DNA of 37,707 nt, taken from a virus. A program made the translations under genes and the position numbers. Positions 7,551 to 37,707 of this stretch are shown here, piece after piece; positions within the stretch are counted from its first letter, which is position 1, and every line of letters starts with the position of its first letter. A model generated the notes under the pieces. It saw only the letters and a program-made list of their open reading frames with translations. It was not told the origin of the DNA and ran no database searches. The DNA lies in IMG/VR virus record IMGVR_UViG_3300008110_000161, positions 1-37,707 of that record; one strand, 5' to 3'.

Positions 7551-7561
7551 CGGAGACTGCT

Positions 7562-7870: not shown

Positions 7871-7872
7871 TT

Positions 7873-9955: not shown

Positions 9956-9956
9956 T
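9951..9956 (+). promoter_or_regulatory. Candidate promoter -10 (TATAAT) before the head genes
   Basis: A perfect TATAAT overlaps the Ntn hydrolase stop, 26 nt before ATG 9983. The expected start near 9962 leaves a short leader with AAGGAGAC. No clear -35 is seen. It could drive the membrane protein, portal, scaffold and capsid genes. Confidence 0.45.
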
Positions 9957-9982
9957 CTCTTTGAACCTAATCAAGGAGACTT

Positions 9983-10264: not shown

Positions 10265-10303
10265 GATATTCATATCCTCCTTTTTTGTGGAAAGATATAA
10301 CTA

Positions 10304-12001
10304 ATGGCTATTGATTTTTGGTCACCCTCTTATCGTGCATCTTCAAGTGACCTCACAGTTGCTATCTCTCCGCTTGGATTGGTTGAACTTGCAGACGAAG
10401 AGTTTGAAGTTCATGGACCACGTCTAAACCGTTATTCTGCGGCTTGGGCGTGGTACCTAGGTCACCACTGGTCATACCGCCGTGAGATGGGCGAGTCACA
10501 GTTCTACATGAACTATGTCCGTACCATGTCGGACTACATCACCAACTTCTGTTTTGGTAAGGGCGTTCAGTTTAAAGTACCTGAGCAAAACGGTGCTATC
10601 ACCCCACACTTGCTCCATAAAGTTTGGGATCAAGATAACAACAAGCATTATGTGCTTTGGGAAATGGGTCAACTTGCTTCGGTAACTGGTGACGTATTCG
10701 TTAAAGTTGCTTACGAAGAACCATTTGTTGACAGCGTGGGTATCCCACATGAAGGTCGTGTGCGTGTTATTCCTTTGAACCCAGCACATTGCTTCCCTGA
10801 GTACCACCCGCATGACCGTGACCGTTTGATTCGTTTCAAACTTAAGTATCGCTTCTGGGGGACATCGCCAGAAGGAACTCGTCAGGTTTATACATTTACT
10901 GAGATCCTTACTGACGACACTGTCCAGCAGTTTATTAACGACGAACTAGTTGACCAATACGAAAACGTTCTTGGAACTATCCCTGTCGTACACATTCCAA
11001 ACACATCAATCTCTTCGTCACCTTGGGGTCAGTCAGACATTTGGGACATCATCCCTCTCAACCGTGAACTCAACGAGAAGATGGTTGAAGTATCTGACAT
11101 CATCAACTACCACGCCGCTCCTGTAACCATTATTACTGGTGCTAAGGCTTCGCAACTAGAGCGTGGACCTAAGAAGGTTTGGGCTGGTCTTCCTAAAGAC
11201 GCAAACGTGTTCAACCTTGAATCACGTGGTGAGATGGCTGGCGCTTTGGAATACATCACTTTCTTGAAGCGCACCATGCACGAAATCACTGGTGTGCCTG
11301 AGACAGCACTTGGTCAATTCCAGCCAGTATCTAACACTTCAGGTGTTGCTTTGGCTATCCAGTATCAGCCAATGATGAACCGTTTCATGATGAAAAAGAT
11401 CCACTTTACAAAGGGTCTTGAGCGCATTAACGAAATCATTATTCGCACAGTTGCTATCTTCCAGCCTGAGTATCTGTCATATAACCCAATGATTGCGGCT
11501 GAGCCAGAACCAGACCAACTCCCACAGTTGGATCCTGCTGACCCTGTTACTTACAAAACAACGGTGCACTGGCCTGAACCACTGCCTGTTGACCAACTCA
11601 TCAAACTCAATGAAGTTCAAGCCAAGATGGCTTTGGGTCTTGAGTCCAAGCGTGGCGCTCTTGCCTTGTTGGGCGAAGAGTTCCCGAACGAGAAGATGCT
11701 TGAAATCTTTGAAGAGTTGCAAAATGACGCCTTGGACCAAGGTGCCCTTGACATGATGAACGCACAGATTCAGCAAGCCATCATGCTTGCTACAGGAATG
11801 ATTGCAGGACCACAAGGTGCGTCTCCCGCACCTGCTCCTTCTGGAAGTGGTAATGTGACATCATCTAGTGATGGTAACTCTCCATTGCCAGGTGTTGGTG
11901 GAGGTATTCCACCAATTGAAGAAGAGATAGTAAACAAATTAGTTTCACGGGCATACGGAGCAAGGTTCGCCCAGCGCCGTAACCCAGACGAAGACAAGTA
12001 A
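10304..12001 (+). CDS. Portal protein (gp6/SPP1-like)
   Basis: A 565-residue protein. It has the order of a Gp6-like portal: an N-terminal wing (WAWYLGHHWSYRR, VRTMSDYITNFCFGKGVQF), a beta-rich part (TGDVFVKVAYEEPF, RVRVIPLNPAHCFPEYHP), IPVVHIPNTSISSSPWGQSD, then the stem and crown helices (LNRELNEKMVEVSDIINYHA and the ITGVPETALGQF loop). The Pro/Gly/Ser-rich region at about 500-535 and the charged end are probably disordered. It forms the dodecameric ring at one head vertex, through which the terminase packages DNA and to which the tail joins. GGAAAG precedes the ATG, and the position before scaffold and capsid is typical. Confidence 0.92.
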   Translation: MAIDFWSPSYRASSSDLTVAISPLGLVELADEEFEVHGPRLNRYSAAWAWYLGHHWSYRREMGESQFYMNYVRTMSDYITNFCFGKGVQFKVPEQNGAITPHLLHKVWDQDNNKHYVLWEMGQLASVTGDVFVKVAYEEPFVDSVGIPHEGRVRVIPLNPAHCFPEYHPHDRDRLIRFKLKYRFWGTSPEGTRQVYTFTEILTDDTVQQFINDELVDQYENVLGTIPVVHIPNTSISSSPWGQSDIWDIIPLNRELNEKMVEVSDIINYHAAPVTIITGAKASQLERGPKKVWAGLPKDANVFNLESRGEMAGALEYITFLKRTMHEITGVPETALGQFQPVSNTSGVALAIQYQPMMNRFMMKKIHFTKGLERINEIIIRTVAIFQPEYLSYNPMIAAEPEPDQLPQLDPADPVTYKTTVHWPEPLPVDQLIKLNEVQAKMALGLESKRGALALLGEEFPNEKMLEIFEELQNDALDQGALDMMNAQIQQAIMLATGMIAGPQGASPAPAPSGSGNVTSSSDGNSPLPGVGGGIPPIEEEIVNKLVSRAYGARFAQRRNPDEDK

Positions 12002-12006
12002 GTTTC

Positions 12007-12023
12007 TTAATAACAGTTATTAA
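12007..12023 (+). promoter_or_regulatory. 17-bp perfect palindrome between portal and scaffold genes
   Basis: TTAATAAC-A-GTTATTAA: two perfect 8-bp half-sites around a single base. The tight centre suits a dimeric DNA-binding protein better than an RNA hairpin. It lies 5 bp after the portal stop and 29 bp before the scaffold start. Confidence 0.5.
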
Positions 12024-12052
12024 CCGCCAAACAACCTATAAGGATAAGACAT

Positions 12053-12850
12053 ATGGCAAAGAACGTTGGTCCCGAAGGGGACATCATTACCGTTCCTGTA
12101 GACGCTCCAGCAGTGGAGAAGTTTGTAGAGAACGCTACTAAGAACAGCAAGATCTTCACAGAAGATGACGTGGAACAGATTCGCAAGCAGGAGAAAGACA
12201 AACTCTACAAGCGAATTGAAGAGGCCGACAGTCGTGTGAAGACTATGGAAGAGCAGATGAGCCAAATCGCCGCAGAGCGTGAAGCCGCCCGCAAAGAAGC
12301 AGAAGAGCGTGCTAGTAAAGAAGCAGAAATTCTGCGCCAACGGGAGATTGAAGAACTCAGCGCCAAGGACCTCCTTGCCAAGCGTGAAGAGGAATTCAAC
12401 CAGAAACTGCAAGAGATTGACGGAGACTACAAGCGCCGCTTTGACGAGATTGAAGCACAGCGCCAAGCACAAGAGGCGATCATTGAAAAAGAGCGCCGTC
12501 TCCAAGAACTTGGCTCCTACCGCAACCGTAGGTTGTCGGAGGAACAAGAAGCCATCATTCCAGAACTAATAGACCTTGTGTCTGGTAATTCGGAAGATGA
12601 GATTGAAACATCAATTAGTGTACTTCGTGACCGAAGTTCTGCTATTCTTGAATCAATCCAACAAGCGACGGCGCAACAGCAAAGTCGTTTGAGAGGGGTG
12701 CCAGTAACGGCTCCCTCTGTAGGGCCAATGGAAACTCAGACGGAATACCAGCAGTTGAATGCGGATGACATCCGTAACATGACAATGGATCAGTATGCGA
12801 AAATGCGTGATCGGCTACTTAATGCCCGCCCCAATAGGGGTAGGTTCTAA
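12053..12850 (+). CDS. Scaffolding protein
   Basis: A 265-residue protein. Residues 40-165 are an almost continuous charged helix rich in Glu, Lys, Arg, Gln and Ala (TEDDVEQIRKQEKDKLYKRI, then EREAARKEAEERASKEAEIL), a strong coiled-coil candidate. A shorter helical part follows (EAIIPELIDLVSGNSEDEIE), and the basic C-terminus (MRDRLLNARPNRGRF) is the usual coat-binding end of phage scaffolds. It lies between portal and capsid genes with AAGGAT upstream. It is expected to template the prohead and leave before or during packaging. No protease domain is fused to it, which makes the nearby Ntn hydrolase a candidate for its removal. Confidence 0.85.
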   Translation: MAKNVGPEGDIITVPVDAPAVEKFVENATKNSKIFTEDDVEQIRKQEKDKLYKRIEEADSRVKTMEEQMSQIAAEREAARKEAEERASKEAEILRQREIEELSAKDLLAKREEEFNQKLQEIDGDYKRRFDEIEAQRQAQEAIIEKERRLQELGSYRNRRLSEEQEAIIPELIDLVSGNSEDEIETSISVLRDRSSAILESIQQATAQQQSRLRGVPVTAPSVGPMETQTEYQQLNADDIRNMTMDQYAKMRDRLLNARPNRGRF

Positions 12851-12866
12851 AACCTATAACAACAAT

Positions 12867-12884
12867 TAATCCTTAGGAGGATTA
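12867..12884 (+). promoter_or_regulatory. Hairpin overlapping the capsid ribosome site
   Basis: TAATCC (12867-12872), loop TTAGGA, GGATTA (12879-12884). The AGGAGG ribosome site of the capsid gene spans loop and right arm, so folding would limit ribosome access. The stem is only 6 bp, so the effect is uncertain. Confidence 0.4.
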
Positions 12885-12888
12885 GAAC

Positions 12889-13974
12889 ATGGCTTTTCCA
12901 GCCCCAACAGGTGGTGCGGTTACAGGAGCAAACCTAGGGTCAATTACGACCACTGGTTACTCAAGTGACTCAACACTTTCACCCGCAATTCAGCAAATCT
13001 GGTCCAAGGAAATCTTGTTCCAAGCAATGCCAGTACTCCGTTTTGAACAGTTCGCAGTGAAGAAGACCGAACTCGGCGTGATGCCAGGTCTCACTGTTAA
13101 CTTCATGCGTTACAACAACCTTTCGGTTGATGCTAACGGTTCAGAATTGGTTGAAGGCGTCCGCATGGAACCATCGGCTCTCTCGGCTTCCCAGATCCAA
13201 ATCACCGTTAAGGAACAAGGTAAGTCGGTTGCAGTAACCGAACTTCTCTTGAACGCTTCGTTTGATGACGTTATGGCATCGTCCAGCCGCTTGCTCGGTC
13301 GTCACATGGCACAGTCCATGGACGTTCAGGCACGCAACACGCTGTACAGTGCAGGCGTTCCATTCGGTGGCGGTTCCGCAGTTGCTCCATCGGTAATCTT
13401 CGGTCGCAAGACCAACGGTTCAACCCGTGGCTCAATTGCTCCTTACGAGTACTCGGCAGCAGGCTCGGCTTCGGCTCCTGGCTACCTCTCACCAGCAACC
13501 ATTAAGGACGCTGTTGAAGTACTTGCAGGTCAGAACATCCCACGTCTTGGCGACACTTATGTTTGCTTCGTACACCCAGCACAGGCACGTTCCCTCCGTG
13601 ACTGGCCTGAGTTCATTGAAGTAACGAAGTATGCCGCTCCAGGAAACTTCATGCTCGGTGAAATCGGTCGTATCTACGACGTAGTTTTCATTGAAACCAC
13701 TCAAGTACTTCAGGGTGGCACTGGAATCGTTGACGTAACCCCAGGTGGTTCAATCAACGACCCAACCGCAACCTCGTACAGCGCAATGATGATCGGTGAC
13801 AACGCATTTGGTCAGGCAATCGCCTTGCCAGTTGAACTCCGTGACGGTGGCGTAATTGACTTCGGTCGTGAGCATGGTCTCGCTTGGTACGCAATCTGGG
13901 GCTTCGGTGTTCTTACACACGAATCCCGAGTGTTGATCAACACCAAGGGTGGAGCAATCAACGACACCTTCTAA
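12889..13974 (+). CDS. Major capsid protein (N4-gp56-like, HK97 fold)
   Basis: A 361-residue protein. It shows the N4-gp56-type layout: IQQIWSKEILFQAMPVLRFE (about 31-50), a beta strand and loop with GLTVNFMRYNNLS, ALSASQIQITVKEQGKSVAV, a long spine-like helix around ASFDDVMASSSRLLGRHMAQ, then HPAQARSLRDWPEF and GEIGRIYDVVFIETTQV late in the sequence. It builds the icosahedral shell. It starts after the strongest ribosome site in the window (TTAGGAGGATTAGAAC). The coding region favours particular codons such as TCG, GAC and CGT, as expected of a very highly expressed gene. Two hairpins follow the stop. Confidence 0.92.
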   Translation: MAFPAPTGGAVTGANLGSITTTGYSSDSTLSPAIQQIWSKEILFQAMPVLRFEQFAVKKTELGVMPGLTVNFMRYNNLSVDANGSELVEGVRMEPSALSASQIQITVKEQGKSVAVTELLLNASFDDVMASSSRLLGRHMAQSMDVQARNTLYSAGVPFGGGSAVAPSVIFGRKTNGSTRGSIAPYEYSAAGSASAPGYLSPATIKDAVEVLAGQNIPRLGDTYVCFVHPAQARSLRDWPEFIEVTKYAAPGNFMLGEIGRIYDVVFIETTQVLQGGTGIVDVTPGGSINDPTATSYSAMMIGDNAFGQAIALPVELRDGGVIDFGREHGLAWYAIWGFGVLTHESRVLINTKGGAINDTF

Positions 13975-13990
13975 CTCTTAGAAGTTAGAA
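13969..13990 (+). other. 8-bp hairpin across the capsid stop codon
   Basis: TTCTAACT (13969-13976), loop CTTAGA, AGTTAGAA (13983-13990). The left arm contains the TAA stop of the capsid gene. It may stabilise the capsid mRNA 3' end together with the GC-rich hairpin just after it. Confidence 0.5.
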
Positions 13991-14004
13991 ATGAAGTAGA
14001 GTGT

Positions 14005-14030
14005 AAGGGCGGGGGAAACCCCGCCCTTTA
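14005..14030 (+). terminator. Terminator-like GC-rich hairpin after the capsid gene
   Basis: AAGGGCGGGG (14005-14014), tetraloop GAAA, CCCCGCCCTT (14019-14028): ten perfect pairs closed by a GNRA loop. The following tract is TTTATCTC, a short and imperfect U-run, so termination may be partial. This would leave capsid mRNA more abundant than the downstream fibre and neck genes. Confidence 0.75.
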
Positions 14031-14064
14031 TCTCATCAGTAACTCAAACAATTAGGAGAATGCA

Positions 14065-14301
14065 ATGGCAACCAAAAAAGCCAATATCTTTGCTGAACCT
14101 GTGGAAACAGAAGAAGCACCTGCTGTAGAAGTACAGCCAACTGTTGTTAACAGTGACATGATCAGTGCCCGTGTGAAGGGTACATGGACGATGTTCTGGG
14201 GACAGCAATCATTTAATTTTGAGGATGGTTCACGCTACACACTCCCACGTGACCTCTACAATTATTTGCGCAAAAGCGGAAATATCTACGACACTCTCTG
14301 A
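14065..14301 (+). CDS. Small hypothetical protein after the capsid gene
   Basis: A 78-residue protein. The first 30 residues are acidic and Pro/Val/Glu-rich (MATKKANIFAEPVETEEAPA); the rest forms a compact domain with RVKGTWTMFWGQQSFNFEDG and YTLPRDLYNYLRKSGNIYDT. The C-terminal 'P-x-x-L-y-x-y-L-r' segment recalls small proteins encoded just after the capsid gene in other phages. Possible roles are head completion or decoration, unproven. It has a good ribosome site (TTAGGAGAATGCA). Confidence 0.6.
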   Translation: MATKKANIFAEPVETEEAPAVEVQPTVVNSDMISARVKGTWTMFWGQQSFNFEDGSRYTLPRDLYNYLRKSGNIYDTL

Positions 14302-14309
14302 GGTAAATA

Positions 14310-15482
14310 ATGGCTGGTTTTACAGTCCCCAATGCAACCGACTATGCAGTTGGTGGAATCATTGCATCGCTGGATCAAGCAGAACCAGACTCACTTGACT
14401 TCTCGTCACTATCTGACCGACGCAATTCGGTTATTAGCGGTGGTGGCTATACCTCTGTTACAACGGCGTCAGGTAACGCTACGCCTGCATACCTCAACGT
14501 AGCGCTTGCCGCTTCTGAGGTTCGCATCAATGGAGTGTATGGCACTATCGCTAGTAGCACTGTTATTGTCCCTCTTGCCGAGGTTAACAGCAACACCCGT
14601 TTTGATTTAATTGTTGCTTACAACAACGGTGGCACTTTCCAGTACGCCGTAGTGTCAGGGACTGCAAGTGGTACAAACCCAGTGTTTCCTACTCTCCCAG
14701 ACACCCAAATACCTTTGTATGCGGTGTATGTAAAGAACACTTTCAACACCACCTACACCACTGAACTGCTTGTAGATAAGCGTATCTTTGACCTTACCTC
14801 ATTCACTCGTTCAGCAAGCGGTGCCCCAGCAAGCAGTTTAGGAACTACTGGAGATATCTACCTAAACACAACCAGCCCATCTAACAACGGTCAATCTCAG
14901 ATCTATGTAAAGACTGGTGCATCATCATGGGTAAACCTTGCTACATATGTAGCAATGGCTTCAGCCAACACGGCTAATGCTCTGGTACAACGTGACGGTA
15001 GCGGTAACTTTACCGCAGGAACTATTACGGCAACTACCTTCTCAGGATCAGGCGCTTCACTTACAAACATTCCAGGGTCTGCATTAGACAACACATCTGT
15101 GGCAACTGGAAAGATCGCTGACAACGCAATCACCGTTGCTAAACTTGCTGCTGGAGCGCCACGTGCAGGGTTTAACTCTACTCGTTCAACAACTACTGGA
15201 AACTACACAGTGTCTACTTCTGATGTAGGTAAGTTGGTGGAGTTAAGTGCAACTAGTGCAAATATTACCGTAACCGTTCCAGGAACTGGCTTTGCTGACG
15301 GTGACCGTATTGACCTTCTTCAAACTTCTTCCAACACCTACCGTGTCACTATTCAAGGTGACACAGGTGTCACTGTGAGTGCAGAAGGTAACAAAAGAAC
15401 ACTAAAAGCGCAATGGGCTGGAGCCACTTTGATTAATCGTGGCACCAACACGTGGGTTCTTATCGGCAACTTGACTGCGTAG
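14310..15482 (+). CDS. Tail fibre / receptor-binding-type protein
   Basis: A 390-residue protein rich in Thr, Ser, Asn, Ala and Gly. The N-terminal 180 residues form a beta-rich base domain (MAGFTVPNATDYAVGGIIAS, then IPLYAVYVKNTFNTTYTTEL). A middle part has fibre repeats: ANALVQRDGSGNFTAGTITA, TTFSGSGASLTNIPGSALDN and IADNAITVAKLAAGAPRAG, typical of trimeric phage fibres. The C-terminal 100 residues (NYTVSTSDVGKLVELSATSA to WVLIGNLTA) resemble a small beta-sandwich tip. It probably recognises the host surface. It is preceded by GAGG and lies between capsid and neck genes, an unusual place for a fibre. Confidence 0.8.
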   Translation: MAGFTVPNATDYAVGGIIASLDQAEPDSLDFSSLSDRRNSVISGGGYTSVTTASGNATPAYLNVALAASEVRINGVYGTIASSTVIVPLAEVNSNTRFDLIVAYNNGGTFQYAVVSGTASGTNPVFPTLPDTQIPLYAVYVKNTFNTTYTTELLVDKRIFDLTSFTRSASGAPASSLGTTGDIYLNTTSPSNNGQSQIYVKTGASSWVNLATYVAMASANTANALVQRDGSGNFTAGTITATTFSGSGASLTNIPGSALDNTSVATGKIADNAITVAKLAAGAPRAGFNSTRSTTTGNYTVSTSDVGKLVELSATSANITVTVPGTGFADGDRIDLLQTSSNTYRVTIQGDTGVTVSAEGNKRTLKAQWAGATLINRGTNTWVLIGNLTA

Positions 15483-15488
15483 CCTCTG

Positions 15489-16499
15489 ATGATTCCAGGA
15501 ATCGTTGAATCGTCTAGGTCAGTAAACCCTTTCTTAGAAACATTTAACCGTGCTAACACGTCTAGCCTTAGCACTACAGATGTTGAATGGACTGAGATTA
15601 CGGGTGATTGGGTAATTGATACCAACACTGCCTACACCGCTACCTCTGCTTCTTCATACCCAATAGCAACCTTTGACTCTCAAAAATACAATGTGTCTTT
15701 ACGGGCAACTAACGGAGACAACAAGGCTGGATTTGGTGTTGCCTTCTGGGTACAAGACACCAACAACTGGTGGGCGTTAGTTAGTGACAGCACTACCACT
15801 ACTGGTTCTTATTCTTATTACACATGTCCTCAAGGTGGTTACCTTTCAGGAACTACCTGTTACAACACCGTAACTGAACAATTCATTCGTTATTTTACAA
15901 ACGGAGATGGCTGTGTAAACAACCATGCCTATGACTACACCATTGACGCCGCTAGTGGTGACTGTACCTGTAACGACAACTGCCAGCCATGTAACGATTA
16001 TGTAGTAAACGGTACTTGCTATCAAGTAGGACTACCAAGTACCGAAGAAGATTGTTATATAAGTGGTGGGACCTACTTCAGTGGTGGTTGCTATTTTTAT
16101 CCAACATTTTGGTGTCCTCCGTACACTTACCAAGCCCCAGGTTGCGGTCCTGTTTATGGAACCCTTACAACTGACGTCCAGTATGCCGCAACTCTTGCCA
16201 CAGCCTATACCACTACGTATACGTACACAATGAAGTTGATTAAGAACGTTGCAGGAACTGTATCTGTTGTTGCCACACAAGAGCATGGTACAGATACCTC
16301 AGACGGTAACTACATTAATACTTTGTCTGTTGTAACTAACGAAAACCAGTTGACACTTAGTGGTGTTCGTAACGGTTTAAATGTTTCGTTTAGCCACACA
16401 GCGGTTAGCCCACTTGTAGCGGATAACCACGGTATTATATTGGCACCTGCTTCACGTAATCAGGGTTCACGAATTGATGACTTCTACTACTTTGGATAA
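15489..16499 (+). CDS. Fibre protein: lectin-like domain interrupted by a 12-Cys insert
   Basis: A 336-residue protein. Residues 13-110 and about 228-336 look like two halves of a concanavalin/LamG-like beta-sandwich (FLETFNRANTSSLS, ITGDWVIDTNTAY, GFGVAFWVQDTNNWWALV; then YTMKLIKNVAGTVSV, NGLNVSF, SRIDDFYYFG). Between them, residues 113-219 hold all 12 cysteines together with many Tyr, Gly and Asn, unlike the flanking Thr-rich sequence. The outer domain may bind glycans; the Cys-rich insert may be a disulfide- or metal-stabilised exposed loop. It follows the fibre gene by 6 nt and precedes a six-Cys protein by 2 nt. No Shine-Dalgarno is seen, so translation is probably coupled. Confidence 0.7.
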   Translation: MIPGIVESSRSVNPFLETFNRANTSSLSTTDVEWTEITGDWVIDTNTAYTATSASSYPIATFDSQKYNVSLRATNGDNKAGFGVAFWVQDTNNWWALVSDSTTTTGSYSYYTCPQGGYLSGTTCYNTVTEQFIRYFTNGDGCVNNHAYDYTIDAASGDCTCNDNCQPCNDYVVNGTCYQVGLPSTEEDCYISGGTYFSGGCYFYPTFWCPPYTYQAPGCGPVYGTLTTDVQYAATLATAYTTTYTYTMKLIKNVAGTVSVVATQEHGTDTSDGNYINTLSVVTNENQLTLSGVRNGLNVSFSHTAVSPLVADNHGIILAPASRNQGSRIDDFYYFG

Positions 16500-16501
16500 A
16501 A

Positions 16502-16654
16502 ATGGAAACACAACTAACAGCAGAAGAACGTTTGGACATCTGTAAAGAATGCCCAAGGTTATTCAAACCCACCTTTACTTGTAAAGAATGTGGTTGCTTC
16601 ATGAAAGTAAAAGCACAACTCAAAGGGTCAAAGTGCCCAATAGGAAAATGGTAA
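16502..16654 (+). CDS. Small six-Cys putative zinc-ribbon protein (paralogue of 1566-1793)
   Basis: A 50-residue protein, METQLTAEERLDICKECPRL at the N-terminus and CPIGKW at the C-terminus. Cysteines at 14, 17, 27, 30, 32 and 45 follow C-x2-C-x9-C-x2-C-x-C-x12-C, exactly the spacing in the 75-residue protein at 1566-1793. Shared words include RLDIC, ECP, QC/EC-GC and K-x-K-x-x-L-K. It starts 2 nt after the Cys-rich fibre gene, suggesting a linked role such as metal handling or fibre maturation. This is inference; the function is unknown. Confidence 0.75.
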   Translation: METQLTAEERLDICKECPRLFKPTFTCKECGCFMKVKAQLKGSKCPIGKW

Positions 16655-16656
16655 AT

Positions 16657-16962
16657 ATGGATTACGAGATTATTGAAACAACGGTTGGTCCAATTACTAA
16701 GTGGAAAGACCAATTAGTAACCCTTCAGGATATTCCTGTGCTTTTAGATATTGCCTACGCTAATCCTAACTTTTTAAATGATTTATATAAGACTATTCAA
16801 CAAGGGATGGCGTCTGCTTTTAAAGATCAACTTGATGCCTTTGAGATGAAAATGAACTTTCATTCTCCAAAAATCAATGCCTACATATCTTCAGCAACCC
16901 AATACATTTCTTTTATATCTGGTCCTTGGCCCCAATACAGACAGGTGATGGAGAATAAATGA
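16657..16962 (+). CDS. Hypothetical helical protein
   Basis: A 101-residue protein starting MDYEIIETTVGPITKWKDQL. The middle is amphipathic helix (NDLYKTIQQGMASAFKDQLD) and the end is aromatic (YISFISGPWPQYRQ). ATG 16657 is chosen because AGGAAA lies 9 nt upstream; an in-frame ATG at 16648 would overlap the previous stop and lacks spacing. It overlaps the next gene by ATGA. There is no membrane segment and no family I recognise. Confidence 0.6.
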   Translation: MDYEIIETTVGPITKWKDQLVTLQDIPVLLDIAYANPNFLNDLYKTIQQGMASAFKDQLDAFEMKMNFHSPKINAYISSATQYISFISGPWPQYRQVMENK

Positions 16963-17114
16963 CAACTGAACGTCCTATCCCTAAACCAACGGGCACCGTT
17001 GCCGACATCACCAGAGTGTTAGGCGTTATGTCCCATCGCCACAGAGAACAACAACCAGAGGTAAATCAGCCCTACAGAGACACTGTCCCTGGAGCAGGCT
17101 CAGGCGATCAGTAA
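16959..17114 (+). CDS. Very small hypothetical protein
   Basis: A 51-residue polar protein, MTTERPIPKPTGTVADITRV at the start and VPGAGSGDQ at the end. It begins at an ATGA overlap with the previous stop and has GGAG 5-8 nt upstream, which supports it as a real gene. The Pro-rich start and Gly/Ser end suggest flexible ends around one short helix (VADITRVLGVMSHRHRE). Function is unknown; it closes the fibre cassette before the neck genes. Confidence 0.6.
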   Translation: MTTERPIPKPTGTVADITRVLGVMSHRHREQQPEVNQPYRDTVPGAGSGDQ

Positions 17115-17121
17115 TTTGAAG

Positions 17122-17127
17122 TAAACT
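17122..17127 (+). promoter_or_regulatory. Candidate leaderless promoter -10 (TAAACT) for the neck genes
   Basis: TAAACT ends exactly 6 nt before ATG 17134, with no Shine-Dalgarno in the 19-nt intergenic gap. The same hexamer at the same distance precedes the minus-strand gene starting at 34372. No -35 is evident. Confidence 0.5.
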
Positions 17128-17133
17128 GTAAGC

Positions 17134-17946
17134 ATGGCTATCTACTCACAGCAGATTCTGGATGAGGTTACTACGGTAGCCCGAAACTACTTGCGGGACT
17201 TTCCAAAGTTCTTTCAGGTATCTTTTGACGCTGTAGGGCGTACCTACGAGTTAGGTCAGCCTAACATTGACACCAGCACCATGTGGATTGCCACAAACGT
17301 TGGTGCTTCTGTAACTGAACTAACATCGTCTCAGTATTCACTAGACAGCCGTAACGGCATTCTCCGCCTTGCTTCTACCCCTGCATCAGGAGCAAAGATC
17401 ATGGTTGAGGGGTACCACTACGAATGGGTGTCCCCACAAGACCTTGAGTTCTATGCCAAGCAGGCTATTTCTCAGCACACTTTCAGTCTTGAAATACCTC
17501 TTGAGAACATGTCTGCGCTTATCATTGAAACGATTGGTATTGGCACCATCGTAGAAGCCCTAGGTGCTTTGATGTCTGAGTTCAGCCGTGACATTGACGT
17601 TATGACCTCTGAGTCCATTCATATCCCAGCCAGCCAGCGTTTCCGCATGGTACAAAGCCTCCTTGCCTATTGGACTGGTCAGTATCAGTCACAGGCTCGT
17701 GCGCTTAACATTGGTGTTGACAGAATTGAAATATTTAATCTACGCCGTGTATCCCGCACAACTAACCGTTATGTACCAATCTTTAAGGCTAAAGAACTTG
17801 GCGAGTACGGTCCAATTGAGCGCATCTTCCCAAATCAAGACAAAGAAGTTATTCAACTTGAGGAAGACCCACTGGATAAGTTGCGTGAAGATGTATACAT
17901 TGACATGGATCCCCCAACGGGCTACACGAATAACACATACATCTAA
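17134..17946 (+). CDS. Neck / head-tail connector candidate
   Basis: A 270-residue soluble protein. N-terminal helix (SQQILDEVTTVARNYLRDFP), beta-rich part (QVSFDAVGRTYELGQPNIDT, SLDSRNGILRLASTPASGAK, MVEGYHYEWVS), then helical segments including SRDIDVMTSESIHIPASQRF and RMVQSLLAYWTGQYQSQARA. The order after the capsid and fibre genes and before the sheath fits a head-completion or adaptor protein; an N-terminal helix followed by a beta module is common in such proteins, but I do not recognise a named family. It is preceded by a leaderless-type promoter and overlaps the next gene (TAATG). Confidence 0.55.
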   Translation: MAIYSQQILDEVTTVARNYLRDFPKFFQVSFDAVGRTYELGQPNIDTSTMWIATNVGASVTELTSSQYSLDSRNGILRLASTPASGAKIMVEGYHYEWVSPQDLEFYAKQAISQHTFSLEIPLENMSALIIETIGIGTIVEALGALMSEFSRDIDVMTSESIHIPASQRFRMVQSLLAYWTGQYQSQARALNIGVDRIEIFNLRRVSRTTNRYVPIFKAKELGEYGPIERIFPNQDKEVIQLEEDPLDKLREDVYIDMDPPTGYTNNTYI

Positions 17947-18482
17947 TGGATCTTCGGCGTGAACTAAATAGTATTCGCCGCCATTACCGTGAATACACCA
18001 GAAACTATGGTGAGACGGTGGTCTGGTTTGAATACCTAACAGCCACTACTCCAGCCAGCGCTGGGTCACTATACGATGACGTATATGACGAAGGCATAGC
18101 AGGTCCAAACGGACGCAAGTACAAGTCGGGTGTGACTATTCCCGTATTGATGATTACGGAAACTGAAGACCAGAAACGAGCCATTCCTGAAGGTCGTCAG
18201 CCTGTGGAACTCACTAACTTTGTGGCATCCATTGAGGACTTTAGAACCGCTGGGGTGACCGATCCTTTTGAATACCAGAAGCATCTAAACGATATGTTCT
18301 TGTATGACGGTCGTTATTTTAGTCTTGCTACATACCGTGTTCGTGGACGCTTACGTGATGACGTCCTTGTAGTCGTTGAAGGTATTGAGGTTTACATCAA
18401 CCAAGAAATGCCTTTTGACCCAGGTCCAACCGCAATGGGTATACAAAACCTGCCTTGGCCTACAGCGTTGCCTAGTATTTGA
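17946..18482 (+). CDS. Neck protein candidate
   Basis: A 178-residue soluble protein. It starts with a basic helix (MDLRRELNSIRRHYREYTRN), then reads as beta-rich: YGETVVWFEYLTATTPASAG, YDDVYDEGIAGPNGRKYKSG, VTIPVLMITETEDQKRAIPE. It ends in a polar tail. Proteins of this type between capsid and tail terminator often form the head-tail joining ring, and 'YDDVYDEG' segments occur in such phage proteins. The assignment rests on gene order. The start overlaps the previous stop (TAATG). Confidence 0.55.
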   Translation: MDLRRELNSIRRHYREYTRNYGETVVWFEYLTATTPASAGSLYDDVYDEGIAGPNGRKYKSGVTIPVLMITETEDQKRAIPEGRQPVELTNFVASIEDFRTAGVTDPFEYQKHLNDMFLYDGRYFSLATYRVRGRLRDDVLVVVEGIEVYINQEMPFDPGPTAMGIQNLPWPTALPSI

Positions 18483-18496
18483 TAAACTTAAATCAA

Positions 18497-18514
18497 TCTT
18501 GGTGAGCGCCAAGA
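18497..18514 (+). other. Short hairpin before the 18546 gene
   Basis: TCTTGG (18497-18502) pairs with CCAAGA (18509-18514) around TGAGCG. It sits in the 63-nt gap before ATG 18546, and AACTTAA occurs on both sides (18484 and 18530). It is not followed by a T-run; a role in mRNA processing is possible. Confidence 0.35.
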
Positions 18515-18545
18515 GGTCCAACGCCTAGAACTTAAGGAGAAGCCA

Positions 18546-18926
18546 ATGCCTGGCTTTGATGCCCCTATACCCTCAAGTTCTAGTGACTTTATATCTGGAG
18601 AACCTTGGGTTCTTAAGAACATGATGTCTACTACGCTCAACTTTCCCAAACTCGTAGCATCGGCTTTATATGCCGCCGCTCAAGAAGAGGAAGACAGGTT
18701 ACGACGTACCTATGCAGATCAAGGTATTTCTGCTGATGTGTCAGTCACGTACAACGTTAACAATAATAGGTTTGAAGTTACGGCATCAGGGGCTGAGGTC
18801 GTTGAAGCAGAGTACGGCGGACCTACCTCTACAGCACGGGCACTCTTGCGCAAATCGGTGGTTCGTGACGCTGCCGCTATGACAAAGACCATTGAAAAGG
18901 TAATCAGTAAAGGCTTAAAAGTATGA
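18546..18926 (+). CDS. Head-tail joining / minor tail protein candidate
   Basis: A 126-residue protein. A polar N-terminus precedes a helix (LNFPKLVASALYAAAQEEED), then a beta hairpin pair (ISADVSVTYNVNNNRFEVTA, EVVEAEYGGP) and a C-terminal helix (ALLRKSVVRDAAAMTKTIEK). Helix, hairpin with 'EVEYG', and basic C-terminal helix is the layout of small HK97-gp10-like or tail-completion proteins. The role is inferred from this layout and its place directly before the tail-terminator candidate. It has a strong ribosome site (TTAAGGAGAAGCC) and its stop overlaps the next start (ATGA). Confidence 0.5.
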   Translation: MPGFDAPIPSSSSDFISGEPWVLKNMMSTTLNFPKLVASALYAAAQEEEDRLRRTYADQGISADVSVTYNVNNNRFEVTASGAEVVEAEYGGPTSTARALLRKSVVRDAAAMTKTIEKVISKGLKV

Positions 18927-19558
18927 AAACTGGGTTCCTCTTTGCCGAAGACGAGGCAATCAAAAAGTTGTTTACAGGTCTTACCGTCAGTGACGACCGT
19001 GATGCCTCACGCCCAGTTCAGGTGTTCTTCCGATACCCAGAAGGTGAAACAGAACGATACTACCCTTTCATCACAATTGAACTAATTGACATTATGCACG
19101 CAAAGAACCGCCAGCATTCTGAAACGTTCTTGAACACCCACCATGCTGGGCACCCTGACAACATTGATTATTGGCCTAGCACTTCCTCGGCTAGTGCCCC
19201 ACCTAGTGGTGAATATGACTCGTATAAAACTACTGAGTTTACCCCTATAGATCTTTTATATCAAGTTTCTACGTTTACAAGAAGCGCCATACATGACCGA
19301 CAAATAGCCACCCAGATGTTAACTACAGTTATCCCCTTTAGGTACAGTTCAATCAACATTGAGGCAGACGGAACCTCTCGTCGTTTGGACCTACTAGATT
19401 GGTCTACAGCAGACCTTCTTGACCCTGAAGCGGGCTACAGAAAGCGTATCTTCCGTAAGGTATACACACTACAAATGACGTCGGAACTTCCAACGTCTGC
19501 ACTAATTGGCCTCAAGAAAGTAACGTCTGTATCAACTACACTTGAACAGACAAATTAA
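18923..19558 (+). CDS. Tail terminator / sheath-completion candidate
   Basis: A 211-residue protein. It contains RPVQVFFRYPEGETERYYPF with ITIELIDI (about 31-58), later LLYQVSTFTRSAIHDRQIAT, then VIPFRYSSINIEADGTSRRL and IFRKVYTLQMTSELP. The pattern of a beta-rich core with 'YPFITIELIDI' and 'LYQVSTFTRS' resembles proteins immediately upstream of contractile-tail sheaths, which cap the tube and sheath before head joining. The assignment is by position and general fold impression. It ends 37 nt before the sheath start. Confidence 0.55.
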   Translation: MKTGFLFAEDEAIKKLFTGLTVSDDRDASRPVQVFFRYPEGETERYYPFITIELIDIMHAKNRQHSETFLNTHHAGHPDNIDYWPSTSSASAPPSGEYDSYKTTEFTPIDLLYQVSTFTRSAIHDRQIATQMLTTVIPFRYSSINIEADGTSRRLDLLDWSTADLLDPEAGYRKRIFRKVYTLQMTSELPTSALIGLKKVTSVSTTLEQTN

Positions 19559-19595
19559 TTATTGAAACCCTGTCACCTTTGATTTAGGAGTAAAA

Positions 19596-21173
19596 ATGGC
19601 ATACGAACGCCCAGGAGTCTACGTACGTGAGACTCCATTTACAAGCAACATCAGCCCACGCACCGCTACAACGGCTGCCGCATTTGTCGGTACCTCGGAG
19701 CGTGGTCCTGCTGTTCCAACCCTCATTACCTCGTGGAATGACTACAAGGCAAAGTTTGGAGAACTGGCTCAAGGTTACGACCTTGGTTATGCTGTTTACC
19801 ATTACTTTGCAAACGGTGGTCGTGACGCTTACGTCTCACGTGTAATTGACACCACCGCAGTTGCATCTACAGTTTCGTACACAGGTACAGTAACTGGTGC
19901 TTCTGGATCATCAACTTTGTTTACTTTGCAAGCATCATCAAAGGGTGCTTGGGGCGATGATGTATCAGTTGTTTTGAGTTTTGATACAAACACTTTGGTT
20001 GACGCTTCAAGCGCTCCAAAAGTTCAATCGTCAACATTGTTCTCAATGATTGTTTCGCAAGAACGAAACGGTTCTACAATTGAAGTAGAGCGTTGGCAAG
20101 AACTTTCGTTTGACCCATCAGCAAGCCGTTACTTCAAGCAAGTTCTTGAACTTTATTCCTCGTATGTATTTGTACAAGGAACGCCAGCAACAATTGGTGC
20201 TGGAACAACCATTGCTGTATCTGGTATTACCGCAGGTACGTACTCAACAACACTTACGTTGGCTAACGGTTCAGACGCTACTAACGCTTCGGCAGTAGGT
20301 GCTGACACCGAATGGGCTACCGCAGTATCAAGCCTTGATTCAGTAACTGGTCCTTTGTTGATCAACCTTGTTGGTCAGACATCAAGCACCCGTGTTAACC
20401 AAGTCTTGTCGTATGCGGCAAACCGTGCTGACGCTTTTGTCATCATTGACTGCCCAATTGACGCCGCAACCAAAACTGACATGCAGACCGCAATCTCGTC
20501 ATACAGCACCAGCAATGGTGGCTTTGGCGCTGTGTACTTCCCAGCATTGAAGATGTATGACCCATCAAAGAGTGGTCCAACCGCTATCCGCAACACCTAC
20601 CCAGGTGGAGCAATTGCTGGAGCGTACGTACGTTCGGAAAACCTCCGTGGTGTTGCTAAAGCACCTGCTGGTTACTTCTTGGACTTGCAGAACGTATTCG
20701 GCTTGGTAGCAACGGTGTCAGATGCCGATCAAGGTACTTTGTATAACACCAACCATGTTAACTGTATCCGCACCATTGCTGGTGGCGGAACCATTATCAA
20801 TGGTGCTCGCACGTTGGCTAAGAACCGACCAGACAAGTACATCACGATCCGTCGCACCCTTTCGTACTTGCGTACGGTTCTTGATGCACAAACTCAGTTT
20901 GCTGTTTTTGAACCTAACGACGAACGTTTGTGGGATCGCATCAAAGTCTCATTGTCCAGCACTCTTACTGACTTCTGGGCTAAGGGGAACTTGAAGGGTG
21001 CGAACTCAACAAGTGCTTTCTACATCATCTGTGACTCAACAAACAACACTCAGGCAAGTATTGAAGATGGCTACGTAAATATTGAGGTTGGTGTCGCATT
21101 GCAGTACCCAGCCGAGTTTGTCGTAATTAACCTCACACAGTGGGCTGGCAACGGCTCTGCTGGAAACCTCTAA
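19596..21173 (+). CDS. Tail sheath protein
   Basis: A 525-residue protein with a classic sheath N-terminus: YERPGVYVRETPFTSNISPR, TTAAAFVGTSERGP, AVYHYFANGGRDAYVSRV. The C-terminal conserved part (from about 310) has GAVYFPALKMYDP, PGGAIAGAYVRSENLRGVAK, the LAKNRPDKYITIRRTLSYLR strand-helix, FEPNDERLWDRIKVSLSSTL and a final VEVGVALQYPAEFVVINLTQ-type segment. The inserted middle (about 85-270) is Ser/Thr/Ala-rich and is probably the exposed domain. It forms the contractile cylinder around the tail tube and defines the phage as a myovirus. It has a good ribosome site (TTTAGGAGTAAAA). Confidence 0.96.
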   Translation: MAYERPGVYVRETPFTSNISPRTATTAAAFVGTSERGPAVPTLITSWNDYKAKFGELAQGYDLGYAVYHYFANGGRDAYVSRVIDTTAVASTVSYTGTVTGASGSSTLFTLQASSKGAWGDDVSVVLSFDTNTLVDASSAPKVQSSTLFSMIVSQERNGSTIEVERWQELSFDPSASRYFKQVLELYSSYVFVQGTPATIGAGTTIAVSGITAGTYSTTLTLANGSDATNASAVGADTEWATAVSSLDSVTGPLLINLVGQTSSTRVNQVLSYAANRADAFVIIDCPIDAATKTDMQTAISSYSTSNGGFGAVYFPALKMYDPSKSGPTAIRNTYPGGAIAGAYVRSENLRGVAKAPAGYFLDLQNVFGLVATVSDADQGTLYNTNHVNCIRTIAGGGTIINGARTLAKNRPDKYITIRRTLSYLRTVLDAQTQFAVFEPNDERLWDRIKVSLSSTLTDFWAKGNLKGANSTSAFYIICDSTNNTQASIEDGYVNIEVGVALQYPAEFVVINLTQWAGNGSAGNL

Positions 21174-34148: not shown

Positions 34149-34372
34149 TACTTTTCTTTCTTATGAGGATGCTTTGCGTGCCAGCCTTTAGTGGCTTTAA
34201 CACCTTCTTTAACCGTCTTGGCTCCAGCCACTTTAGTTAAATTAATCTTGTCGTTTTTACCTTTGGTGATACCAAGGTGATCAGCAATTATTTCCTCATT
34301 TTTTTTATATATGCGGTGAGGGGCACCGCCTGCCTTAATCGTTGCTGGTGCTTCTTTTTTCTTTGATGCCAT
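34148..34372 (-). CDS. Small Lys-rich protein, first gene of the minus-strand block
   Basis: A 74-residue very basic protein, MASKKKEAPATIKAGGAPHR at the start and GWHAKHPHKKEK at the end. The middle (YKKNEEIIADHLGITKGKND) is a helix. Its MASKKKE start resembles the next gene's MASKKE, possibly from duplication. It has no Shine-Dalgarno; TAAACT lies exactly 6 nt before its ATG on the minus strand, as for the 17134 gene. The charge suggests nucleic-acid binding, but no domain is seen. Confidence 0.65.
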   Translation of the reverse strand: MASKKKEAPATIKAGGAPHRIYKKNEEIIADHLGITKGKNDKINLTKVAGAKTVKEGVKATKGWHAKHPHKKEK

Positions 34373-34378
34373 AAAACT

Positions 34379-34384
34379 AGTTTA
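34379..34384 (-). promoter_or_regulatory. Candidate leaderless promoter -10 (TAAACT) of the minus-strand genes
   Basis: Read on the minus strand: TAAACT at 34384-34379, then AGTTTT, then ATG at 34372. It has the same hexamer and 6-nt distance as the 17122-17127 site, and no ribosome site lies between. It would transcribe all three coupled minus-strand genes. Confidence 0.55.
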
Positions 34385-34387
34385 GCG

Positions 34388-34475
34388 GTTGGGAGGAGAG
34401 CCATAAACACGGGCAGGGGAGAAAGGAGGTAAAGCCCCTGCTCTGTCGTCCTGAGGAGGTCGCTCTCCTCCCAAC
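34388..34475. other. 14-bp perfect inverted repeat enclosing a second hairpin
   Basis: GTTGGGAGGAGAGC (34388-34401) pairs perfectly with GCTCTCCTCCCAAC (34462-34475). Inside, GGGCAGGGG (34411-34419) pairs with CCCCTGCTC (34435-34443, one G-U), with AAAGGAGGTAAAG in its loop. AGGAGG-like words occur three times. No supported gene lies in 34373-34572. It could be a structured RNA or a transcription barrier between divergent genes. Confidence 0.6.
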
Positions 34476-34485
34476 ACTCTTATTA

Positions 34486-34514
34486 CTTTAACACCCGATC
34501 AGGAAGTGTTAAAG
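34486..34514. promoter_or_regulatory. Operator-like 9-bp inverted repeat upstream of the replication genes
   Basis: CTTTAACAC (34486-34494) and GTGTTAAAG (34506-34514) with an 11-nt spacer; centre-to-centre about 20 bp, two helical turns, suiting a dimeric repressor. A TAACAT (34529-34534) downstream may be a -10, which would place this site over the -35. ACACTCT (34474-34480) and AGAGTGT (34523-34529) form an outer 7-bp pair around it. Confidence 0.5.
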
Positions 34515-34572
34515 CAACGCCGAGAGTGTAACATGGGCGCCCCGAGAAATGACAACCTGAGGAGCACAAGAA

Positions 34573-35058
34573 ATGGCAAAGAACAACCGACTGAGTGGCC
34601 CCTTCCTACCAGTCCCGAGATGGGTGTTGCCCTACATCGCAACTGACTATGTATCCCATGCAGTACTAAACCACTTCCTTCAGTACCTCCACCCTGATAC
34701 TCAGGAACTGACAACGTCCTACCAGCACATTGCCGATCAGATGGGCTGTGACCGCCGTACCGTAATGCGCTCTATTAAGCGACTTGAGGAGATTGGTTTA
34801 ATCGTTAAACAGCACCGTGTTACTAGGTCAAATAAGAACCTGACGAATAGTTACTATGTCAATTTTAACAACCCACTAGTGTCACACGAGTCACCCCTAG
34901 TGGTGACACTGGAGACACTAGGTAGTGTCACGGGAGACACTACTAGTGGTGTCTGTGGTGACACCCAATCAAGAGTAACTAACAAGAGTAAAAAAATCAA
35001 TAAGAAGGAAATTTCAACAAAAGTAGATCAGAGGTTGATGGATGAAGAAACAATTTGA
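34573..35058 (+). CDS. Winged-helix replication initiator candidate
   Basis: A 161-residue protein. Residues 15-97 form a winged helix: VPRWVLPYIATDYVSHAVLN, ELTTSYQHIADQMGCDRRTV (HTH), MRSIKRLEEIGLIVKQHRVT, and the wing strand SYYVNF. This resembles phage initiators and replisome-organiser proteins with an N-terminal HTH. Residues 100-137 are a Ser/Thr/Val/Gly linker encoded by an unusual repeat cluster (34876-34965); the last 25 residues are Lys-rich and polar. The arrangement, with DNA-binding domain, repeats in the linker codons, and downstream loader and helicase genes, parallels lambda O. It has a good ribosome site (TGAGGAGCACAAGAA). Confidence 0.7.
   Translation: MAKNNRLSGPFLPVPRWVLPYIATDYVSHAVLNHFLQYLHPDTQELTTSYQHIADQMGCDRRTVMRSIKRLEEIGLIVKQHRVTRSNKNLTNSYYVNFNNPLVSHESPLVVTLETLGSVTGDTTSGVCGDTQSRVTNKSKKINKKEISTKVDQRLMDEETI
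34876..34965. repeat. Iteron-like cluster of GTGTCAC/GTGACAC words (candidate origin)
   Basis: GTGTCAC or close variants occur on alternating strands at 34879 (+), 34903 (-), 34912 (-, GAGACAC), 34925 (+), 34934 (-, GAGACAC), 34949 (+, GTGTCTG) and 34958 (-). CTAGTG or CACTAG occurs at 34876, 34897, 34916 and 34943. Several pairs form inverted repeats, for example GTAGTGTC/GACACTAC (34922-34929 and 34936-34943). The cluster lies inside the initiator gene, in its linker region. Confidence 0.6.
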
Positions 35059-35443
35059 CGACTGGGGAACTGGTTTAGGTGAAGACCCCGATAGAAAAGA
35101 ACCAGCCCCAAAACAGATGCGCCAAGATTCCCGAGGCTCTCTAGTTCACTTCTTCCGTGACAGTCTGCCAACCGAGAACCTGATGAGAATCACCGCCCCT
35201 GTAAATGGTCCCGCCATGATGAAAGGGTTTAAGAAACTTACGGATAGAGGCTTTACAAACGAACAGATTCGTGAGATGATTTTGGACTTCGTAAAGGAGA
35301 TCACACGCCGACCATTGCCAGTAGAGGTGGCACCATGGAGAGCGTTCCTTGCGAATTTAGATAAGTACGCAAAACAGCAAAGGACGATTAAAGATGTTGA
35401 ACCAACAACAACCTCCATTGACCCCCGTCTCATCGGAGACTAA
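35042..35443 (+). CDS. Replication-module hypothetical protein
   Basis: A 133-residue soluble protein. The N-terminal 30 residues are charged (FDDWGTGLGEDPDRKEPAPK); then a helical domain: SRGSLVHFFRDSLPTENLMR, PAMMKGFKKLTDRGFTNEQI and MILDFVKEITRRPLPVEVAP with WRAFLANLDKYAKQ. 'TdrGfTneqIr.MI..F' is a pattern seen in small phage proteins next to initiators and helicase loaders. A role in helicase loading is plausible by context only. It overlaps the initiator gene by 17 nt; its own 3' end overlaps the next small gene. Confidence 0.6.
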   Translation: MKKQFDDWGTGLGEDPDRKEPAPKQMRQDSRGSLVHFFRDSLPTENLMRITAPVNGPAMMKGFKKLTDRGFTNEQIREMILDFVKEITRRPLPVEVAPWRAFLANLDKYAKQQRTIKDVEPTTTSIDPRLIGD

Positions 35444-35574: not shown

Positions 35575-36207
35575 ATGACTGAATGGAAGAGTAACAAGTA
35601 CTGGCGTAACCGTCCAATAGAAGAACGAGTGCGTAACCTTCGTGTTCCACCTCGCTATAAGAACTGCACGTTTGAAAACTATGACGAAGAACAAGGTTCC
35701 CCAACGTTCCAAAGCGCTGTAGAGAAGTGGTCAACAAATGTTGATAAGCGCATGGAAGACGGTATGGGTTTGTACATCTACGGTAAGACAGGTCTTGGTA
35801 AAACTCACATGGCAGTCGCCGCCCTTAACAAGATCATCTCAACAAAGCAATTGAGTGGGCTGTTCTTGTCCTATGACATCTTCACCGAAATGGTGCATGA
35901 CTCCCGAAACAATGACGGTGAGTTGCCTGAAATGTACGGCGATCCAAACTTGCTCAAGTACATGCGCCGTGTGTATGACATCGTTGTGATTGACAACTTG
36001 AATGCAGACCGCTTAACTGAGTACATGGCAAAGACTGTGTCAAACATGATTGAGTCTCGCTACGAAATGCAGTTGCCAACAATCTTTACAACAGAGATTA
36101 TCCCTGACAAACTTTCAGCGATCTACAGTCCACGAGTTCACTCCATCATCAAGCAGTCATGCTTCATGGTTGGTGTAACTGGTGAAGACTACAGAACGAG
36201 GGACTAA
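35575..36207 (+). CDS. DnaC/IstB-like AAA+ ATPase (helicase loader)
   Basis: A 210-residue protein. The N-terminus (NLRVPPRYKNCTFENYD) is the usual lead-in of DnaC-like loaders. Walker A is GKTGLGKTH (70-78) and Walker B IVVIDNL (136-142), where Asn follows the Asp in place of the usual second acidic residue. A sensor-1-like TIFTTEI follows (about 169-175). It should bind ssDNA and deliver the hexameric helicase encoded at 36647. The gene order initiator, loader, helicase matches phage replication modules. The truncated-looking C-terminus (YRTRD) still fits the family length. Confidence 0.85.
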   Translation: MTEWKSNKYWRNRPIEERVRNLRVPPRYKNCTFENYDEEQGSPTFQSAVEKWSTNVDKRMEDGMGLYIYGKTGLGKTHMAVAALNKIISTKQLSGLFLSYDIFTEMVHDSRNNDGELPEMYGDPNLLKYMRRVYDIVVIDNLNADRLTEYMAKTVSNMIESRYEMQLPTIFTTEIIPDKLSAIYSPRVHSIIKQSCFMVGVTGEDYRTRD

Positions 36208-36647
36208 TGCTTGGTAACGACATTCAGTCTTATGACTACATCGGATTCGGTGTTGTCTTTGAAGACCTACTCGCTACACCACCTGTAAAATTAAAAGCAC
36301 TAGGTGCATCGTTGTATCAGGCACGTAACAATTGGAACCGTGTTATTGAACAATGGAAGCCAAACGACATGCCATTAAAAGCGCTGTATGACACAACTAA
36401 TCGGTTGGGCATTGGAGCAGAAGTATTTACTTTCTTACATCCTGATGCTGTGCCTGCAATTGAACAATTCTTATTTCGCAAAGATATTTCTGTTCCTGTT
36501 CTTTACTACAAAGCGGTAGAAGATTTGGAATATGACTTGCGTTTCAAGCGAGCAATCCGTACAATCTTCGTCCCGCACAAAGAACAAGCCTCAGTGCTTG
36601 GGATGCGTGCAACAGTCACACCTCCTACTAGCGCTTGGGTTCTCTAA
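36207..36647 (+). CDS. Hypothetical protein between loader and helicase
   Basis: A 146-residue soluble protein of mixed helix and strand. It contains LKALGASLYQARNNWNRVIE, DTTNRLGIGAEVFTFLHPDA, VPVLYYKAVEDLEYDLRFKR and AIRTIFVPHKEQASVLGMRA. The last part, 'IRTIFVPHKEQAxVLGMRATV', reads like the end of a HAD-like or nuclease-like phage protein but lacks a clear catalytic motif, so no function is given. It is coupled on both sides (TAATG at 36207 and at 36647). Confidence 0.6.
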   Translation: MLGNDIQSYDYIGFGVVFEDLLATPPVKLKALGASLYQARNNWNRVIEQWKPNDMPLKALYDTTNRLGIGAEVFTFLHPDAVPAIEQFLFRKDISVPVLYYKAVEDLEYDLRFKRAIRTIFVPHKEQASVLGMRATVTPPTSAWVL

Positions 36648-37707
36648 TGGCATCAACTGAACATCTCTTAATCAGTAAGGTAATCCAAACCTCAGACCTG
36701 AGCGAAGTTATTGATGCAGGTATTCGCCCCGAGCACTTCAGCGGTGAGTGGTCTGACATCTGGCTATGGGTTCTTAACTACTGGCGTGAGTACAGCACTA
36801 TTCCAACGGCTCGTGCGTTTAAACAAGAGTACGCAGATGTTCGTTTGCTCAACGCAGAGAACGAACCATTCCAGGCTCTCATTGACGAGATTTACATTGC
36901 CTACAAACAACAGCACTTGGTGCAAGCAATTACATCCGCTCTCCCAGCGCTGAACAACAACGAGACAGAAGAAGCATTTAACAAACTGTCAGAAGGTTTA
37001 CAAAAAGCATCAGTAGAGGTTGCACGCCTACGAGACGTTGACCTCACGCAATCGTGGGAAGGACGGTTAGCAAAGTATGAAGAAATGCGTAACACCCCGA
37101 ACGGTCTTCGTGGCATTCCGACAGGCTTCTTGGGTCTTGATCGGATCACTGCTGGTCTTCGGCCTCAGCAGTTGGTTACATTCGTTGGTGAAGCGAAAAA
37201 AGGTAAATCATTAATGACCTTGATCATGGCTGATGCGGCTCACAACCACGGCATCACGCCAATGTACGTTTCGTTTGAAATGAGTATTGAAGAGCAAGCG
37301 GCTCGTTATGACGCCATCATCTCAGGTATCCCGCACACACGGATCATCCGAGGTGACTTGACTGCTAGTGACATGGAAAAGTTAAGCAAAGCACTTAGCC
37401 TCCGTAAGAACATGCAACCATTCGTTATGACAGAAGATGCCCACTCTCTAACAACAGTAAGCGCACTCGCTGGCAAAGTACAACAGCACCGACCACGATT
37501 GCTCATTGTTGACGGTGTGTACTTGATGGACGATGAGAACGGAGAACCAAAAGGTTCACCTCAAGCATTGACAAATATCACACGAGCATTAAAGAGGTTG
37601 GCACAGCGCTTTGATATCCCTATCATCGGAACTACGCAGGTTCTGTCGTGGAAACTTGGCAACAAGAAGTCACGTCAAATTACTGCGGAAGCAATCGGAT
37701 ACACCTC
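36647..37707 (+). CDS. DnaB-like replicative helicase (truncated by window edge)
   Basis: The first 353 residues are visible; the gene runs past the window. The N-terminal helical domain (1-125) is followed by a linker and a RecA-like core: GIPTGFLGLDRITAGLRPQQ, Walker A GEAKKGKS (181-188), YVSFEMSIEEQAARYDAIIS, Walker B RLLIVDGVYLM (284-294) and IIGTTQV with a likely sensor Gln331. These match hexameric DnaB helicases that unwind DNA at the fork. ATG 36647 overlaps the previous stop (TAATG). The Walker B Asp is followed by Gly-Val, less usual than the Asp-Tyr-Leu of cellular DnaB. Confidence 0.88.
   Translation, partial: MASTEHLLISKVIQTSDLSEVIDAGIRPEHFSGEWSDIWLWVLNYWREYSTIPTARAFKQEYADVRLLNAENEPFQALIDEIYIAYKQQHLVQAITSALPALNNNETEEAFNKLSEGLQKASVEVARLRDVDLTQSWEGRLAKYEEMRNTPNGLRGIPTGFLGLDRITAGLRPQQLVTFVGEAKKGKSLMTLIMADAAHNHGITPMYVSFEMSIEEQAARYDAIISGIPHTRIIRGDLTASDMEKLSKALSLRKNMQPFVMTEDAHSLTTVSALAGKVQQHRPRLLIVDGVYLMDDENGEPKGSPQALTNITRALKRLAQRFDIPIIGTTQVLSWKLGNKKSRQITAEAIGYT

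Follow-up and report, generated by a model that had tools for sequence, protein, structure and literature searches.

In the replication origin of phage lambda (ori-lambda), O dimers bind inverted repeats of 19 bp that lie within O, beside a 40-bp A+T-rich region (PMC5043065). The annotated ori-lambda iterons inside O are spaced 20/24/23 nt apart. In RepA_N plasmid initiators (pSK41 type), the N-terminal domain is a winged helix, the binding sites are central in the rep gene, and the origin encodes the linker; pPR9 is an HTH_36 hybrid, the Rep of which carries the HTH of pfam13730 (PMC5703833).

The 37,707-nt stretch of viral DNA analysed here (the window; IMG/VR record IMGVR_UViG_3300008110_000161) encodes terminase, portal, major head, and tail-sheath proteins (3716-21173), and belongs to a contractile-tail (myovirus-type) phage. 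Four of its long relatives (G003, G004, G005, and G007) can be aligned as circularly permuted versions of a single ~97-kb genome plan. A prophage search for the host gave 149 pattern matches and no confirmed relative. At 34876-34965, within the initiator gene, is a repeat array that very probably represents the binding sites of a phage replication origin inside its own initiator gene (an intragenic, O-like iteron origin). We infer this because the array exceeds codon-preserving chance, has a fixed geometry, and is the sole cluster of its motif in seven long relatives; because synonymous changes are fewer there, nucleotide identity peaks over it, and a low-stability stretch adjoins it; and because the gene families, the conserved order of the genes, and the layout are those of an initiator locus resembling ori-lambda. 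The initial annotation had proposed a candidate origin here, and this reading gains support from the O-like and initiator families, the helicase loader and helicase encoded downstream, the constraint at the DNA level, the adjoining low-stability stretch, and the ori-lambda layout. The putative origin is thus of a known kind, like ori-lambda, and well supported by comparison. In the literature searched, an intragenic origin has not been described before for this phage group.

The initiator gene and its counterparts

The initiator gene (34573-35058, plus strand) encodes 161 aa, comprising a winged-helix domain (residues ~16-96), a linker, and a short C-terminal tail. The protein matches Pfam HTH_36 (PF13730; 2.2e-08, above the family cut-off), PHROG 270 (replication initiation protein; 1.1e-14), and PHROG 391 (O-like; 1.1e-12), with the O-like match spanning the N-terminal and middle parts. 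The AlphaFold2 model (mean pLDDT 62.6) contains the winged helix, with residues 103-154 and 157-161 below pLDDT 50; residues 103-154 are predicted to be a disordered linker. Phage matches to the initiator cover the winged-helix part only, at < 60% identity, and include no near cultured relative with a mapped origin.

The locus resembles ori-lambda in that the linker codons of the initiator gene contain four phased dyadic iterons, with an AT-rich stretch directly downstream and then helicase-loading genes; dyadic iterons inside the initiator gene, an adjoining AT-rich melting stretch, and an O-like family match are features that it shares with the lambda type. It differs from lambda in the iteron word, in the size of the initiator (161 aa vs. 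299 codons, without the long C-terminal part of O), in having a DnaC-like AAA+ loader and a phage-encoded DnaB-like helicase (lambda uses P and host DnaB), and in an extra 133-aa gene lying between. The window initiator shares the Pfam family pfam13730 with pPR9 Rep, and its fold similarity to RepA_N initiators is weak. No PDB match of the initiator model reached E 0.001 or better; the weak winged-helix matches include the RepA_N initiators 4pt7, 5kbj, and 4pql. The RepA_N domain (PF06970) is absent among the families listed at E 0.1, of which HTH_36 is the best. The folded C-terminal domain that is a RepA_N trait, and binds primase in pSK41 Rep, is missing from the window initiator, in which residues 103-154 and 157-161 are below pLDDT 50. 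At the C-terminus, where a lambda-type initiator has its loader-binding domain, the model has a short low-confidence tail.

The dyad array and the low-stability stretch

The array was initially annotated as seven GTGTCAC-type words on alternating strands, located in the codons between the winged helix and the C-terminus. The AlphaFold2 model bears out this location, as the repeats map to linker codons. The seven words also stand as a cluster of GTGTC/GACAC (34879, 34905, 34914, 34925, 34936, 34949, and 34960), although the exact GTGTCAC/GTGACAC occurs in only four of them and the strands do not strictly alternate. Each word is one half of a 16-bp dyad; there are four such dyads, with the consensus GTGWCWCnnGWGWCAC. 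The dyads, to which no strand is assigned, are GTGTCACACGAGTCAC (34879-34894), which is completed by an eighth, degenerate half-site (GAGTCAC); GTGACACTGGAGACAC (34903-34918); GTGTCACGGGAGACAC (34925-34940); and GTGTCTGTGGTGACAC (34949-34964), which departs from the consensus once. They start at 34879, 34903, 34925, and 34949, so that their spacing is 24/22/24 nt (roughly two helical turns), and are read in frames 0,0,1,1. The four CTAGTG/CACTAG words also noted initially are present in the same 90 nt, but are not part of the conserved iteron: they sit in spacers and flanks, the dyad arrays of more distant clades lack CTAG words, and they are spacer or flank sequence specific to the close clade.

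For both word types together, 34876-34965 is the densest site in the 37.7-kb window. Single words counted over the whole window are at chance level, so the signal is the cluster. In 20,000 synonymous draws at local codon usage, none reached the seven words (mean 1.5) or the 6-mer redundancy of the array (33 observed; mean 5.1), and none of 400 within-gene shuffles of synonymous codons matched it. The same holds for 13 other initiator genes, the arrays of which exceed codon-preserving chance (0/400 shuffles each). The consensus was derived by eye from the arrays; the codon-shuffle tests are independent of it. An unsupervised dyad finder recovered the arrays of the window and of the relatives L024, L047, and L026; it missed the lambda iterons and gave only fragments elsewhere, and was not used for those. 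Across seven relatives (records of 67-97 kb), the motif clusters solely in the initiator gene.

Elsewhere in the window, three GTGTCAC/GTGACAC words lie within 31 nt at 15343-15373, inside an ORF of the structural half. This site was considered as a second array and rejected, as it includes one consensus-fitting dyad (at 15358) rather than four; these words are likely due to chance.

Directly 3' of the array is an AT-rich, A-rich stretch (34966-35030, no strand assigned), a candidate DNA unwinding element with fewer synonymous changes in codons 133-150. The sequenced replication module has its least stable 50-mer here, beginning at 34976 and ranking in the top 0.04% of the window. In L004, L006, L012, L024, L025, and L026, the least stable 40-mer of the gene is likewise directly downstream of the array, but it does not adjoin the array in L047. 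GC and AT skew, calculated for seven records of 67-97 kb, are weak and have no turning point at the array, and were counted neither for nor against an origin.

By analogy, the initiator would act as a dimer that binds the iterons and opens the DNA. Dimers of the winged-helix domain would bind the four 16-bp dyads, and the spacing of roughly two turns (24/22/24 nt) could let the bound array form one nucleoprotein complex. As in ori-lambda, this complex and negative supercoiling would melt the AT-rich stretch directly 3', and the initiator tail, perhaps with the 133-aa neighbor, might then bring in the DnaC-like loader and DnaB-like helicase.

Four phased sites and a conserved melting stretch are not needed by an operator; the array is ~300 nt inside the gene, a scan found no promoter-like site in or beside it, and the closest protein families are initiators. 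We therefore consider it unlikely that the winged-helix protein uses the dyads as operators (for autoregulation or control of downstream genes) with the origin elsewhere, even though the domain also resembles transcription regulators and, in the window, the overlapping next gene starts 78 nt after the array. Operator and origin roles are not mutually exclusive.

More improbable still is that the dyads function as RNA or DNA hairpins (as a terminator, in translation control, or for packaging or partition) rather than being bound as duplex DNA. A short hairpin is possible for each dyad, and lambda iterons can form hairpins too (PMC7466680), but some dyads are imperfect (such as GTGTCACCACAGACAC in L005), the scan found no terminator-like site at the array, and the 22/24-nt phasing (~two helical turns) points to duplex DNA.

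Constraint on the linker codons

Relatives of the initiator were taken from viral contigs. The array is kept throughout the close clade (83-100% identity). In L024 and L025 (52-53% identity) and L047 (55%), the dyads fit the window consensus; the first spacing can vary, as can the linker peptides. L025 and the close clade share with the window an arrangement of four dyads at 24/22/24 nt in frames 0,0,1,1. The final two spacings (22 and 24 nt), and a one-base frame switch that falls between the third-last and second-last dyads, also occur in L024 (frames 0,0,0,1,1), L047, and L026; the last of these (36% identity) has a different dyad word (GGGTAGTCGGGGAACTACCC) spaced at 30/22/24 nt and keeps the one-base switch. 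Related winged helices (31-45% identity over the matched part) are also encoded by proteobacterial prophage initiator genes in viral contigs (L051-L108). Their linker codons, too, contain a repeat array, which is significant relative to codon shuffles in the genes tested; the repeat words are different and the proteins longer, and the least stable 40-mer is not generally directly downstream of the array.

Within the close clade, synonymous differences decrease from 0.379 in codons 1-100 to 0.065 in the iterons (~six-fold lower than in the winged helix) and 0.108 in the AT-rich tail, whereas amino-acid differences rise from 0.067 to 0.119 and 0.325, respectively. Synonymous variation affects 86 of 98 columns in codons 1-100, 8 of 31 in the iterons, and 5 of 18 in the AT-rich tail (Fisher P vs. 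winged-helix columns of 1.5e-10 and 4.5e-7, with columns treated as independent), and nucleotide identity peaks at 0.92-0.94 over 34873-34992. Comparison with related phages, which the initial annotation had proposed as a check, gave no case of the linker being kept and the repeats lost; the opposite was found, with dyads kept to ~53% identity and a changing linker protein. These patterns support a constraint on the repeats as DNA and not as protein. Selection on a repetitive linker peptide is a scarcely credible source of the repeats: linker peptides are themselves repetitive (VTPES in L024, for instance, or SVTGDT in the clade of the window), but amino acids vary where synonymous sites are constrained, peptide-preserving codon shuffles lose the repeats, and one 16-mer in L024 is read in two frames to give unrelated peptides (VTPQT and GDSTDT), so that the peptide cannot be their cause.

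Neighboring elements and the replication genes

Upstream of the initiator gene, between divergent genes, is a stem-loop element (34383-34479), followed by a further hairpin to ~34545. Both sides change in 9 of the 26 pairs of its helices and 97.9% of cells are paired; the covariation score is reached by none of 500 shuffles, and slid versions pair in about half, with the structure having been derived from the same alignment as the test. The fold z-score is -3.67 for 34372-34575, and there is no Rfam match at gathering. A covariance model has one match in the window and one in each of four long close-clade records, and none in L024, L026, or L047. The Shine-Dalgarno-like loops GAAAGGAGGnAAA and CCTGAGGAGG are invariant while the helices covary, and one loop repeats CCTGAGGAG, which is found in the Shine-Dalgarno region of the initiator itself (34556). 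A minus-strand RNA would thus be complementary to that region, and the element possibly exerts antisense control over the initiator. In the outer stem of the 14-sequence consensus fold, A-C is the sole mismatch type and G-U changes are absent, which, from few events, hints at minus-strand transcription.

Two further features were observed. Just upstream of the initiator (34484-34517), a dyad (TTACTTTAACACC...GTGTTAAAGCAA) stands beside a conserved GTGTARCATG, possibly representing an operator and a promoter -10 region. In the long relatives G002, G003, G004, G007, and G009, mini-hairpins of the form NCCT-GAGG-AGGN' with a Shine-Dalgarno sequence precede many genes (for example, L165:7114-14880, minus strand). 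There are 44 in the five records, with complementary flanking bases in 40 and an ATG/GTG within 14 nt after 38; the reversed pattern does not occur in these records. They recall the start-associated sequences found in mycobacteriophages of cluster K (PMC3203893).

Downstream, all on the plus strand, a gene for a 133-aa helical protein (35042-35443) overlaps the initiator gene and is beside it in all clades; it is followed by a DnaC-like helicase loader (35575-36207; PHROG 50, 3.9e-35), a 146-aa gene, and lastly a DnaB-like replicative helicase that is truncated where the window ends (36647-37707; Pfam DnaB_C, 7.1e-26; PHROG 19, 1.7e-49). These family matches agree with the loader and helicase named in the initial annotation. 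The 133-aa protein has a helical model (pLDDT 74.1) and no PDB fold match. Streptomyces phage BRock encodes a weak counterpart beside its loader (E 8e-5; E 0.042 in a comparison with GiJojo). An initiator-like gene was sought near the helicase of both Streptomyces phages and none was seen, the BRock counterpart of the 133-aa gene being the only likeness.

The initiator and the 133-aa protein have a motif, [IV]DxRL, near their C-termini (VDQRL in the initiator; the 133-aa protein ends IDPRL). They are the sole two of 133 window ORFs (>= 60 aa) to do so, in both cases within the last 18 residues, in a count made after the motif had been spotted. The pair is also present in G002, G004, G007, and G009; in G011 the initiator alone fits the pattern. 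Outside these two genes the motif is rare in the genomes compared. It is possibly a shared docking peptide, and a candidate substitute for a loader-binding C-terminal domain. As a lead rather than a result, we tentatively suggest a split, minimal initiator, on balance doubtful, in which two overlapping genes divide the work: the 161-aa winged-helix protein, with the origin inside its gene, would bind the origin and the 133-aa helical protein would recruit the loader, with the common peptide plugging both into one partner, probably the DnaC-like loader. As findings, the C-terminal motif and the upstream stem-loop element may be more novel than the origin.

The putative origin places an intragenic origin of the ori-lambda type in uncultured contractile-tail phages without a close cultured relative. 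The case that the array is conserved as DNA is a comparative one: clades retain the spacing and the frame switch while their linker peptides vary, as does the iteron word in one clade. The locus offers a short origin segment that can be tested, and recognition helices paired with their iteron words in several clades would allow the study of shifts in initiator specificity.
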